DNA of 35,998 nt from Deltaproteobacteria bacterium (GTDB lineage Bacteria > Desulfobacterota > Dissulfuribacteria > Dissulfuribacterales > QOAL01), in contig JALVJO010000095.1 in assembly GCA_027028245.1 (NCBI GenBank), positions 1 through 35,998 of the forward strand, read 5' to 3'. Positions 3,269 through 35,998 of this stretch are shown here, one piece after another (positions within the stretch are counted from its first letter, which is position 1; each line of letters opens with the position of its first letter). Position numbers and translations under genes: made by a program. The notes below the pieces were generated by a model. It was not told where the DNA came from. It searched no databases and saw only the letters and a list, made by a program, of their open reading frames with translations.

Positions 3269-4171
3269 TCAAAGGATACCCACCACCTCCTGGCGTACCA
3301 CATTTCCGTCCTTCATTTCCACAAAACGAAACTGGTGATCCTTCCTGGCACCCTGGGACACAATGAACCCAAGGGTTGAGATGACCGTCACGTTCCCCTC
3401 TTTGATGACGTTATCCAGGTGCTTATGGCCTGAAAGGGTAAGCCTGAGATTGGGATATTTAAAAAGCCTCTTCTTGACCTCGTCTGCGTTGTTGAGTACG
3501 TACTTGTGGATGTCTGCCTGCTCTTTTCCGCCCCAGAAATTCCAGTAGGGGTGGTGGTTTAAGATGATGAAATGGCGGTCCTTGTTGTTTCTAAGCTGGT
3601 CTTCCACGAAATCAAGGCTTTCCCTGGAAAAAACTCCGTTGTTGTGGTGCTCTATGGTGGTGTCAATGCCAAGGATGGTGTAGTTGCCCTTTTCAAGGCT
3701 CCAGTCCCTTCCAGATACCTTGATGGAGGGTGTGAAAAACATCTTTTCATAGTCTTTCTGGTTCAATGGGTCGGTTTCAGGCTTAGGCGAGGATTCCTTG
3801 TTGCCGCGCACGGAGTACCAGGGGCATTTTAGGCTGTCAGCGATCTTCTTGAAGGTTTCGGCATCCTTCTTACCGGGTACATTGTTGTTGAAATTATCCC
3901 CACCAAAGACCACAAAGTCTGCATTGGGAAAGTCCCTGTTAATCCTTTCAACAAGCATCTCCACCCAGGTGACGGTATCAGGTTTCCCAAGGTCGAGATG
4001 GGTGTCTGTTACGTGCAGGAAGCGAAGATCCGCATCCCTGGAGCTGGATAAGGGCGCATGCCCCTTACTTGCAGTTGCAGGCACACTTCCTATTAATCTT
4101 GAGGCAATGGTGCAGGATGCAAGGCCAAGCATGCCTGTTTTTAAGAAATTCCTTCGTGAAATAGGTTTCAT
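3269..4171 (-). CDS. Tat-exported calcineurin-like metallophosphoesterase
   Basis: This is a 300-residue protein. The start at 4171 follows GGGAGGAAAGAAG; an in-frame ATG 24 bp upstream is less well supported. The N-terminus MKPISRRNFLKTG is a twin-arginine signal, so the protein is probably exported folded with its metals. Metallophosphoesterase blocks are present in order: DTHLD (56-60), GGDN (90-93), GNKE (123-126), NHHP (205-208) and GHKH (248-251). The family uses a dinuclear metal centre to hydrolyse phosphoesters. The usual GNHE/GNHD block has Lys in place of its His here. That His normally assists catalysis, so activity may be altered. Substrate is unknown. The gene is just upstream of the OmpA-coupled pair (45 bp gap) and may be co-transcribed with it. 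Confidence 0.85.
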   Translation of the reverse strand: MKPISRRNFLKTGMLGLASCTIASRLIGSVPATASKGHAPLSSSRDADLRFLHVTDTHLDLGKPDTVTWVEMLVERINRDFPNADFVVFGGDNFNNNVPGKKDAETFKKIADSLKCPWYSVRGNKESSPKPETDPLNQKDYEKMFFTPSIKVSGRDWSLEKGNYTILGIDTTIEHHNNGVFSRESLDFVEDQLRNNKDRHFIILNHHPYWNFWGGKEQADIHKYVLNNADEVKKRLFKYPNLRLTLSGHKHLDNVIKEGNVTVISTLGFIVSQGARKDHQFRFVEMKDGNVVRQEVVGIL

Positions 4172-32935: not shown

Positions 32936-33325
32936 CAGCTTGTACGGATCCTTTCCTGGTTTGAATTTGGGTCCCTTTACGATTCAAGGATATTCTATAA
33001 CCCATAACAAGGTGAAACTTAAGGTTTCTCCATCTAAATTTTCATGATATGGCGTTTGTCACCCCCTGACCATGAAAGTCGGCTCAAGGCTCAAGGTCGG
33101 AAGCTGAAAGATAAAAGCAAACAGTCATGCCTTTTTTGTCTTGAGCTATTTTCACGGCAAACAAAAAGGTATTTATACATCCAGGGCGCTTGTGTTTCTA
33201 ATGCAAAAATCTTTCTTTTAAGACTGCCGCCCAACAGTTACTGCCATTTTAGGTTAAAAAATCAGGCCCGCAACTTAAAAAATCAGGACAGTCCTTGGTC
33301 CGTGCTGCTGGGATACAAATCCATG
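32936..33325. other. Non-coding region between divergent SH3 and TRAP genes
   Basis: This part of the divergent intergenic region contains promoters not individually identified. It also carries the 21-bp-spaced direct repeat at 33254-33287. The open frame at 33044-33475 extends into the hairpin element and has no ribosome-binding site or familiar product. Confidence 0.4.
33254..33287. repeat. Direct repeat TTAAAAAATCAGG, 21-bp period
   Basis: TTAAAAAATCAGG occurs at 33254-33266 and again at 33275-33287, 21 bp (about two helical turns) apart. It lies about 290 bp upstream of the TRAP binding-protein start and next to the hairpin element. It could be a same-face regulator site or a remnant of replication slippage. 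Confidence 0.45.
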
Positions 33326-33434
33326 GTAAGCGCTCACAGGGCACCGCATCTGCTGTGTTGGCGGGCGCTTGAAGTACAGGGAGTACGACTGCGCACCCGC
33401 TGCCTTACATCTGCGGCACCCTGTGAGCGCTTAC
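33326..33434 (+). repeat. Structured hairpin element, copy A
   Basis: Perfect 16-bp arms GTAAGCGCTCACAGGG (33326-33341) and its complement (33419-33434) enclose further nested pairing. Inner stems are CCGCA/TGCGG, then GGG-CGC with GCG-CA-CCC, then the apical GTAC-aggga-GTAC. The inner 83 bases align with copy B (34823-34920, opposite strand) at roughly 70%, with CTTGAAGTAC conserved exactly. Paired positions that differ between copies change on both sides. It lies 139 bp upstream of the TRAP binding-protein start. Confidence 0.7.
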
Positions 33435-33572
33435 AGAATGGGAATATATGCAGCAAAGCTCATTGGAACCTGTGATCAGTTACAATCCATTTGCATTTGA
33501 AGCATTACAGACGTATAAGGTGATAGTTTGGTATTTTTTAGGGATAAATCATCAGAAACAAGGGAGGTTTTT

Positions 33573-34661
33573 ATGGACAGGAGAAGCTTGCTCAAGAAGG
33601 GCGCCCTTGCAGGAGCGGCGGTTGCAGCATCCATGGCCGGTGCGGGTTCTGCCGCGGCGGCTGATTCGGGAAAGAAGATAAAATGGCGAATGGTCACGTC
33701 TTGGCCTCCTGCCTTTCCAATATTGCAGACAGGAGTTGAGAGATTTGCCAAAAGGGTGTCTCAGCTTACAGGAGGCAGATTGATCATCCAGGTATATGCC
33801 GGAGGCGAACTGGTTCCGGCCCTTGGTGTTTTTGATGCAGTATCTTCCGGCTCTGTCCAGTGCGGCCACAGTGCCGCCTACTACTGGGCTGGAAAATGTA
33901 ATGCAGCCCAGTGGTTTACCTGCGTTCCCTTTGGCATGGACGCCCAAGGCATGAATGCATGGTTCTATTTCGGCAACGGCCTAAAGTTGTGGGAGGAGGT
34001 GTACAAGCCCTTCAACCTGGTGCCTAGACCGGCCGGGAACACGGGCTTTCAGATGGGAGGCTGGTTCAACAAGAAGATAAATTCCATGGCAGATTTCAAG
34101 GGGCTCAAGATGAGAATTCCAGGCCTTGGAGGCAAGGTGCTGGCAAAGGCGGGTGGCGCCGTGGTGCTTCTGCCAGGGGGTGAGATCTACACCTCCCTTG
34201 AAAGGGGAGTGATAGATGCAACCGAATGGATCGGCCCGTGCCACGATATTCGGATGGGATTCTACAAGGTTGCAAAATATTATTATTATCCTGGATGGCA
34301 TGAGCCGGGCAGCACGCTGGAACTCATAATGAACAAGAAGGCATACGAGGCATTGCCCGATGATATCAAGGCAGCTGTAGATACGGCTGCCGCAGAGCTT
34401 AATGTGCAGATGCTTTCCGAGTTCGAGATGGAAAATGCAAAGGCATTGGTAGAACTCAAGAAGTCCCACAAAGTTCAGCTGATGCGTTTTCCCGAAAAGG
34501 TGCTTCAGGGTCTGAAAAAGCTCTCTGCAGAGACCATAGAGGAGACAGCAGCCAAGGATCCACAGGCAAAGAAGGTCAACGATGATTTCATGGCCTTCAA
34601 AAAGATGCTCTCAGGTTGGAACAGCATCTCGGAAAAGGCATATTACGACTACATGCTTTAA
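33573..34661 (+). CDS. dctP: TRAP transporter substrate-binding protein (DctP/TakP family)
   Basis: This is a 362-residue periplasmic binding protein. The start at 33573 follows GGGAGG; an in-frame ATG 45 bp upstream lacks a site. MDRRSLLKKGALAGAA is a Tat-type signal. The mature part matches the TakP (keto-acid) branch of DctP: ELVPALGVFDAVSSGSVQCG, HSAAYYWAGK, FGMDAQGMNAWFYFG, PAGNTGFQMGGWFNK, GLKMRIPGLGGKVL, GVIDATEWIGPCHD and YYYPGWHEPG. It would deliver a carboxylate or alpha-keto acid to a TRAP permease; the ligand cannot be fixed from sequence. The large permease at the window end is on the opposite strand and converges on this gene, which is unusual because these genes usually form one operon. 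Hairpin copies A and B lie on either side. Confidence 0.92.
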   Translation: MDRRSLLKKGALAGAAVAASMAGAGSAAAADSGKKIKWRMVTSWPPAFPILQTGVERFAKRVSQLTGGRLIIQVYAGGELVPALGVFDAVSSGSVQCGHSAAYYWAGKCNAAQWFTCVPFGMDAQGMNAWFYFGNGLKLWEEVYKPFNLVPRPAGNTGFQMGGWFNKKINSMADFKGLKMRIPGLGGKVLAKAGGAVVLLPGGEIYTSLERGVIDATEWIGPCHDIRMGFYKVAKYYYYPGWHEPGSTLELIMNKKAYEALPDDIKAAVDTAAAELNVQMLSEFEMENAKALVELKKSHKVQLMRFPEKVLQGLKKLSAETIEETAAKDPQAKKVNDDFMAFKKMLSGWNSISEKAYYDYML

Positions 34662-34749
34662 CCGAGACGATGCACTTCAAACTCTAAAGAAAGACACAAC
34701 TTACATCCTTTTTTCCTGCCGGTCGGGGCGCGGCTTTGGCCGGCAGGAT

Positions 34750-35243
34750 GGGAGCATTCCCAGTTTGTCCCCCATCTGTGCTACCGGCAGGGGAGGGGTG
34801 TTTCTTGAACCCGGATCATGCAGCTCGCAAGTTTGCCGAAGATGCGAGGCGGAGGGCACACAGACGTACTTTGGTACTTCAAGTGGCCGACAACAAAGCA
34901 AATTCGGTAAACTTGCGAGCCCCTTGCGGCTTCAAATGTCTGAGGATTTATTACGGATTGAACTTTACTTTTTGGGTGAAGGCACAACGGGAACAAATAC
35001 ATACTAACTGTGCAATAATTCAATGAAATTACTTTTTTCAGGCATTTGAAGTGCATAATCCGGGTTGAAAGGTTTCACCACAAGGAAGCCAGCTTCAGCC
35101 GCACTCAAGCTGCCGAGATTGACGATCTCTGTATTCAAGAAGAATTTGAAACTTGCACAGCGGCTTGGTGAACCTTGAAAGAAATGCACCTTCCTTGCCC
35201 TTCCTCGCCATTCCTCGTCCGGGGACAAACTGGGAATGCTCCC
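34750..35243. mobile_element. MITE-like element, copy 2, with perfect 23-bp terminal inverted repeats
   Basis: The left end (34750-34772, GGGAGCATTCCCAGTTTGTC plus CCC) and right end (35221-35243) are exact reverse complements. The 8-bp sequence GGCAGGAT lies immediately outside both ends (34742-34749 and 35244-35251), as a target-site duplication would. No transposase is encoded. Inside are hairpin copy B, the 35041-35066 arm (GGCATTTGAAGTGCATAATC), and a right module (35070-35190) shared with copy 1 at 12461-12580. The similar GGC-GGC-GGA flank in copy 1 warns that the direct repeats may belong to the element or its preferred site. Confidence 0.65.
34823..34920 (-). repeat. Structured hairpin element, copy B (inverted relative to copy A)
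   Basis: Read on the minus strand, GCTCGCAAGTTT (34909-34920) and its exact complement (34823-34834) form a 12-bp outer stem unrelated in sequence to that of copy A. Inside are CCGAA/TTCGG, GGC-CAC with GTG-T-GCC, and the apical GTAC-CAAA-GTAC. The core keeps CTTGAAGTAC, GTACG-CTG and TTGCT-TGTTG in line with copy A. It is nested within the 494-bp element and downstream of the TRAP binding-protein gene. Confidence 0.7.
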
Positions 35244-35258
35244 GGCAGGATCTCCACC

Positions 35259-35998
35259 CTATCTCAATGCATTCATGATCCTTGGCAGCCAGGTGGCTGT
35301 CTCGGGGAAAATAACCACGAGAAGCAGTCCCACCAGCTGTATGGCCACAAAGGGGATGATTCCCCTGTAGATCTGCATGGTGGATACCTCGGGAGGAGCT
35401 ACTCCTTTCAGGTAAAAGAGAGAGAAACCAAAGGGCGGGGTCAGAAAAGATGTCTGGAGATTTACGGCAAAAAGAATTGCAAACCACACCGGATCGAAGC
35501 CCATGGCCTTCATTATGGGTGCTAGAACAGGTATGTGGATGAAGGTAATTTCTATGAAATCAAGGAAAAAGCCTGCGATGAAGATTACTGCCATCACCGT
35601 TGCCAGCACACCCCATTTCCCAAAGGGGATGTGGGTTACGAACTGCCTTATCACCACGTCTCCGCCAAGGCCCCTGAAAACAAGGCCAAAGGCCGTGGCC
35701 CCCACCAGGATGATGAAAACCATGCTGGTGAGCTTGACAGTGGTTTCCATAACGGTCCGAAGCACTTCCATGTTGAACCGTCTGTTCAGTATGCAGAGAA
35801 GGGTGGCGCCGGTAGCCCCTACGCCTGCCGCCTCGGTGGGAGAGGCAATTCCAGCAAATATTGACCCCAGGACTGCTATCATCAGGGAAAGCGGGGGGAT
35901 CATGGACTTCATGAGGTAGCGGAAAAAGGATTTCCCCTCTGCCTTGAAGCTGTCATCCCGGACAGGAGGCGCCCAGCCGGGATGAAGCCACGAGGTGA
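35259..35998 (-). CDS. dctM: TRAP transporter large permease (DctM-like), 3' part
   Basis: The frame is open to the window edge, giving about 245 codons of the C-terminal half; the start is beyond base 35998. Hydrophobic helices alternate with loops typical of DctM: GIASPTEAAGVGATGATLL, MVFIILVGATAFGLVFRGLGG, a DFIEITFIHIPVLAPI segment and NLQTSFLTPPFGFSLFYLKG. These residues belong to the ion-transporter-like large subunit that moves substrate with sodium across the inner membrane. The gene ends facing the DctP-family gene. The small permease is not visible. Membership in the same transporter is likely but unproven. Confidence 0.9.
   Translation of the reverse strand, partial: TSWLHPGWAPPVRDDSFKAEGKSFFRYLMKSMIPPLSLMIAVLGSIFAGIASPTEAAGVGATGATLLCILNRRFNMEVLRTVMETTVKLTSMVFIILVGATAFGLVFRGLGGDVVIRQFVTHIPFGKWGVLATVMAVIFIAGFFLDFIEITFIHIPVLAPIMKAMGFDPVWFAILFAVNLQTSFLTPPFGFSLFYLKGVAPPEVSTMQIYRGIIPFVAIQLVGLLLVVIFPETATWLPRIMNALR

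Follow-up and report, generated by a model that had tools for sequence, protein, structure and literature searches.

The Locus and Its Two Hairpins

The window, meaning the whole stretch of 35,998 nucleotides that was analysed (positions 1 to 35,998 of contig JALVJO010000095.1, assembly GCA_027028245.1), comes from a draft genome labelled Deltaproteobacteria bacterium. Towards its right end, the TRAP genes for DctP and DctM are convergent, with hairpin B and the repeat that hosts it lying between them (Table 1), and this arrangement departs from the usual operon. A repeat search of the window delimited hairpins A and B together with their arms, and returned an ungapped inverted match of 35 nt (83%) between the two. 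The outer arms are complementary throughout, at 16/16 positions in A and 12/12 in B. The hairpins, 98–109 nt in size, reach folding z-scores of -5.8 to -9.4, with none of 200 shuffles folding equally well.

From sequence alone, the original prediction had described A and B as a pair of covarying hairpins flanking the TRAP binding-protein gene. Each structural feature that it listed was recovered at its position: the perfect outer arms, the segment CTTGAAGTAC identical in both hairpins, the inner-stem changes (CCGCA/TGCGG against CCGAA/TTCGG, and CGC/GCG against CAC/GTG) and the GTAC-loop-GTAC apex of A and B. The pairing of the two around the gene, on the other hand, is incidental, as A and B come from different elements and are two copies among many. 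Searching the genome with the core of A gave 28 matches, about 25 of them apparently real copies, and a 98-position covariance model gave 41 matches in the same genome. This model scores A at 104 bits and B at 101 bits, both hairpins being among its 25 training rows.

TABLE 1. Positions of genes, hairpins and element parts around A and B, numbered from the first letter of the window.
Feature	Position	Strand	Remarks
Target duplication of A, left copy AATCCATG	33318..33325	.	7/8 match to 33484-33491
Element A, 158-bp gene-less T1 MITE with IS66-type ends	33326..33483	+
Hairpin A	33326..33434	+	Arms 33326-33348 / 33412-33434
Left end of A, also left arm of the hairpin, GTAAGCGCTCACAGGG	33326..33341	+
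Inner core of hairpin A (ATCT...CATCT)	33348..33412	+	Boundary set by alignment
Internal inverted copy of the left end of A, also right arm of the hairpin	33419..33434	-	16/16 complementary
Right end of A, read inward, GTAACTGATCACAGGT	33468..33483	-	12/16 like the left end
Target duplication of A, right copy AATCCATT	33484..33491	.
TRAP DctP gene	33573..34661	+
Other repeat family split by B, inverted ends GGGAGCATTCCCAGTTTGTCCCC	34750..35243	.
Target duplication of B, left copy TTGAA	34805..34809	.
Element B, 255-bp gene-less T3 MITE with IS1380-like ends	34810..35064	-
End of B adjoining the hairpin, CCCGGATCATGCA	34810..34822	+	12/13 like the other end
Hairpin B with the common inner core	34823..34920	-	Arms 34823-34845 / 34898-34920
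Second inverted repeat inside B, arm CTTCAAATGTCTGA	34930..34943	+	Repeat search
Second inverted repeat inside B, partner arm TCAGGCATTTGAAG	35038..35051	-	Repeat search
Far end of B, TGCATAATCCGGG	35052..35064	-
Target duplication of B, right copy TTGAA	35065..35069	.
DctM gene	35259..35912	-

MITEs of Two Types

When aligned with their flanks, the copies in this genome fall into types that are distinguished by the outer arms and the adjoining sequence. Type T1 (GTAAGCG...), to which A belongs, and type T2 (GTATCTG...) both have their left end at the base of the hairpin and a tail ending in GTTAC. Type T3 (GCTCGCAA...), which includes B, lies within a unit of about 250–265 bp with 13-bp ends CCCGGATTATGCA, and GGCAATT... 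marks a further type, T4. That A and B belong to two different MITE types is well supported. The transposon end of T1 itself serves as the left arm of the outer stem, while in T3 the arms of the hairpin run on directly from the transposon end. The outer stems thus differ from type to type and remain self-complementary because each type has its own transposon ends, and the covariation of these stems, being explained by the ends, is therefore not by itself evidence for an RNA. The predicted maintenance of pairing and link to transposition were broadly right, both copies lying in transposed elements and the outer arm of A being a transposon end, but the structured RNA of the prediction is only conjectural, the outer-stem covariation being largely explained by the element ends. 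A match to a known IS end had been named beforehand as evidence against the prediction, and A shows one in kind, through its GTAAGCG start and the 8-bp duplication that it has in common with IS66.

Ends starting with GTAAGCG and 8-bp repeats are the hallmark of IS66 elements (PMC11946415). Element A, whose hairpin occupies its left end, has the inverted GTAA (GTAAGCG) ends of an IS66-type MITE in GTAAGCGCTCACAGGG and GTAACTGATCACAGGT. Among 75 T1 and T2 elements, 8-bp target duplications are exact in 33, compared to 0.5 expected with shuffled right flanks, and agree at 7 or 8 positions in 54, A itself being a 7/8 case; 8 bp is the sole duplication length that works for these types. An IS66 that looks complete, from another genome within the family, bears GTAAGCGCTTCATTAAAC at its ends together with an exact 8-bp duplication, and only GTAAGCGCT of its ends is common to A. 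The draft genome carrying A yielded no IS66 transposase, and neither this genome nor the wider searches yielded an intact autonomous element with exactly T1 ends.

IS1380 elements have ends starting with CC and target duplications of 4–5 bp. In T3, 5-bp duplications are exact in 13 of 20 elements (1.4 when shuffled), and the same holds for 17 of 29 elements in three other families with CC ends (0.9 when shuffled). Two loci of relatives connect these ends to a transposase. In a genome of the same genus (L325), the sequence of one T3 end, CCCAAATTATGCACTTC, lies about 240 bp from the end of an IS1380-type gene (Pfam DDE_Tnp_1_4). In another genus (L327), an IS1380 relic that retains no target duplication lies between inverted copies CCCGGATTATGCAGC and CCCAAATTATGCAGCTCGC, 1672 bp apart, and this relic shows GCTCGC to be part of the T3 end. 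The evidence linking T3 to IS1380 is good. No IS1380 transposase was found in the draft genome carrying B, and the wider searches found no intact autonomous element with exactly T3 ends. For each MITE, the matching DDE transposase would bind the inverted ends and move the element in trans.

The insertion of B can also be read from its empty site. Four other copies of the host repeat (L046, L056, L020 and L023) are uninterrupted and hold one TTGAA each. This host, split by B into 34750-34804 and 35070-35243, is a repeat of about 234 bp from a third family, represented elsewhere in the genome by four or more further copies.

Several arrangements were seen in other copies and genomes. Elements consisting of the hairpin alone, with ends at its base, include L278 (G173), which has an exact 5-bp duplication, TTCAA, and L105 and L315 (G234), in which imperfect 8-bp duplications were identified by eye. 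At L227 (G016:C173), a T2-like copy has its core interrupted by a T1 element with near-identical 8-bp flanks, GACGCTTG and GACACTTG, also identified by eye. Tandem pairs of hairpins about 110 bp apart occur in L079, L114, L118 and L150, and one of these hairpins uses the arm of the other. A distant core at L265:1501-1619 has the arm GGCAGGCTGTTGAAAAA followed by a tail and then TTTTTCAACACTCTGCTAG, possibly a third type of transposon end.

A Core Common to Unrelated Ends

Beneath these different ends lies a common core. The inner core is 0.79 identical between T1/T2 and T3, compared to 0.80 within T1/T2, while the distal arms of T1/T2 and T3 are 0.23 identical, the level expected by chance. 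Other genomes contain MITE families of their own with the same core, other CC-type ends and 5-bp duplications. The core is absent from the IS66 and IS1380 loci of relatives that were examined.

A marker specific to this genome bears on how the core came to be common to the types. In T1, T2 and T3 cores of this genome, the GTTG segment is replaced by a mini-palindrome, TCCCGCG..CGCGGGATC. The replacement is present in 12 full copies as well as partial ones (loci L004, L005, L012, L016, L044, L046, L051, L053 and L058), whereas about 150 cores from other genomes all lack it. As it is confined to this genome yet occurs in three types, cores have apparently been exchanged between families. A chimera (L009; G000:C21, ~3888-4007) joins the left end and core of T1 to the right arm and end of T3, with the switch at CATCT, though an assembly error could have produced it. 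Three lines of sequence comparison, namely the contrast in identity, the marker confined to this genome and the L009 chimera, support the core as a putative exchangeable cassette.

The main reading is thus that A and B represent two MITE types with IS66-type and IS1380-type ends, respectively, mobilised in trans and carrying a core cassette that can be swapped between them; its probability is put at roughly 0.8. At least two IS types would have had the cassette joined to their ends, and cores would then have been swapped between types in the lineage of this genome, probably by recombination or template switching within the core. The types could instead have the core in common through old common descent, with the ends having changed later.

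Covariation and Strand Preference

In an alignment of 25 diverse rows, the covariation score is 0.375, compared to 0.133 (sd 0.010) when shuffled, and 131 cells show two-sided changes, compared to 48.6 in shuffles, counts that come from related and thus non-independent copies. The predicted covariation therefore holds in this alignment. Sliding the partners by one to three columns gives much lower values. Two-sided changes are also present inside the core, away from the ends, at columns 37-65, 36-66, 35-67 and 22-79 of alignment A3. RNAalifold gave no structure for the first alignment, A1, because rows with the insert and rows with differing arm registers were mixed in it, and a trimmed alignment replaced A1 for the structure analysis.

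The two strands do not fold equally well. The minus strand gives the more stable fold for 191 of 201 copies under RNA parameters and for 188 under DNA parameters, the copies again being related. In the outer stem of about 200 copies, with three fixed-mismatch columns excluded, cells with A.C, which correspond to G.U on the opposite strand, number 277 against 64 with G.U, and among differences between near neighbours the plus strand has 106 A.C against 61 G.U. In the minus strand, tandem G.A pairs would arise from the conserved CATCTG/CATCTG internal loop. Between co-directional genes, the plus strand is in the message for 50 elements and the minus strand for 25, a split with p ~0.005 on the assumption of independent copies. 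Either mRNA tends to exclude the better-folding strand, as this bias suggests, or the form that matters is something other than mRNA. Loop conservation, inner-stem covariation and the minus-strand fold in turn suggest that one strand, as single-stranded DNA or antisense RNA, is the form that is kept.

Template switching during replication is a known mutational mechanism that corrects imperfect palindromes. The core may accordingly be a functionless palindrome spread by descent and hitch-hiking, with template switching keeping its arms complementary, and this explanation is given somewhat less than an even chance. The transposon ends account for the outer arms without any selection on folding, and the rarity of the better-folding strand between co-directional genes is what would be seen if that strand were a burden. 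However, such a palindrome would not be expected to conserve its unpaired positions across very divergent copies or to show a strong strand preference, and its fixed A.C mismatches ought to have been erased by correction. Weighed against this passive origin, the action of the core as a folded single strand is the favoured interpretation, at about even odds.

A broader proposal joins this action to the exchange of cores. A functional hairpin cassette may hop between MITE families with unrelated transposases, being captured by new ends and rebuilding perfect arms from them, and may be kept for a specific minus-strand fold that aids its element or that a host factor recognises. This proposal is tentative, and is credited with a little under even odds.

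That the minus strand encodes a structured regulatory RNA, carried by the transposons only incidentally, is unlikely. Covariation that includes the inner stems, the far more stable minus-strand fold and the tandem G.A pairs expected in the internal loop of that strand all suit such an RNA. Yet there is no Rfam match, the plus strand is in the message twice as often between co-directional genes, and DNA parameters give the same strand preference, making single-stranded DNA equally possible. A search of Rfam at the gathering threshold and at E up to 10 returned nothing convincing.

A recombination site of another system, either an integron attC or a REP moved by a tyrosine transposase, is highly improbable: long imperfect hairpins in which unpaired positions are conserved and one strand is preferred would suit one, but the 8- and 5-bp target duplications point to DDE transposition, attC is rejected with both its RYYYAAC and GTTRRRY boxes missing, and REP sequences with a RAYT transposase measure 20–40 bp and are tagged on one side with GTAG or CGTC (PMC3733652), unlike the far longer hairpins here. 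A terminator was rejected by inspection, with no T-run following the hairpin.

Relation to Known Elements

MITEs are usually regarded as remnants of a single insertion sequence, with filler peculiar to each. In the present elements, it is the filler that is conserved and the ends that vary, a pattern found in many families within one bacterial phylum. Should the core be functional, it would be a module that spreads by switching transposition machinery, and a testable case of selection on the interior of a MITE. The elements also carry a caution: where dispersed palindromes have covarying stems at their ends, the covariation can be a product of transposon ends and not of RNA function.

Like IS66 elements and the MITEs derived from them, A has the GTAAGCG start, inverted ends and an 8-bp duplication, with no gene; unlike the IS66 elements examined, it has an extra internal inverted copy of its left end, which closes the hairpin around a core that they lack. 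Element B has 13–20 bp of end sequence in common with two IS1380-type (DDE_Tnp_1_4) loci of relatives but is gene-less and bears the hairpin core that those loci lack. As far as its published description goes, the Chunjie MITE of Geobacter uraniireducens is similarly short, gene-less and high in copy number, with inverted ends, target duplications and strong folding, and the elements here differ in placing one core under unrelated ends (PMC10969869). REP and REPIN sequences are likewise dispersed, multi-copy intergenic palindromes (PMC3733652; PMC3116915), whereas the present elements are 4–5 times longer, with untagged ends and DDE-type target duplications. The multicopy palindromes of Geobacter bemidjiensis, likened here by description only, also form intergenic palindromic families in a deltaproteobacterium, in the older sense of that name (PMC2996986). 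MITEs as such are already known; the sharing and exchange of a core across MITEs with unrelated transposition systems appears to be the new feature, no description of it having been found in the openly searchable literature.

Distribution of the Core

Within the family, 15 of 19 genomes have the core at E <= 0.001, and across the phylum 34 of 198 sampled genomes do; one genome of the same genus holds 93 matches. The named carriers are mainly drafts labelled Deltaproteobacteria, Desulfobacteraceae, Desulfobulbaceae and Thermodesulfobacteriota, including a SeepSRB2 bin, and the carrier group consists mostly of uncultured bacteria. Plasmid and phage records and a scan of viral contigs gave no match to the core, and there is therefore no sign of carriage by phages or plasmids. 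More distant matches keep CATCTGC.GCGTTG..CGCCTTGCATCTG between arms that are entirely different and well paired. A pattern scan also gave weak matches in Clostridia drafts, at L085:1913-2007 and L133:5015-5095 (E 2.9e-5 and 0.016 in their respective genomes), which, if real, would greatly widen the range of the core.
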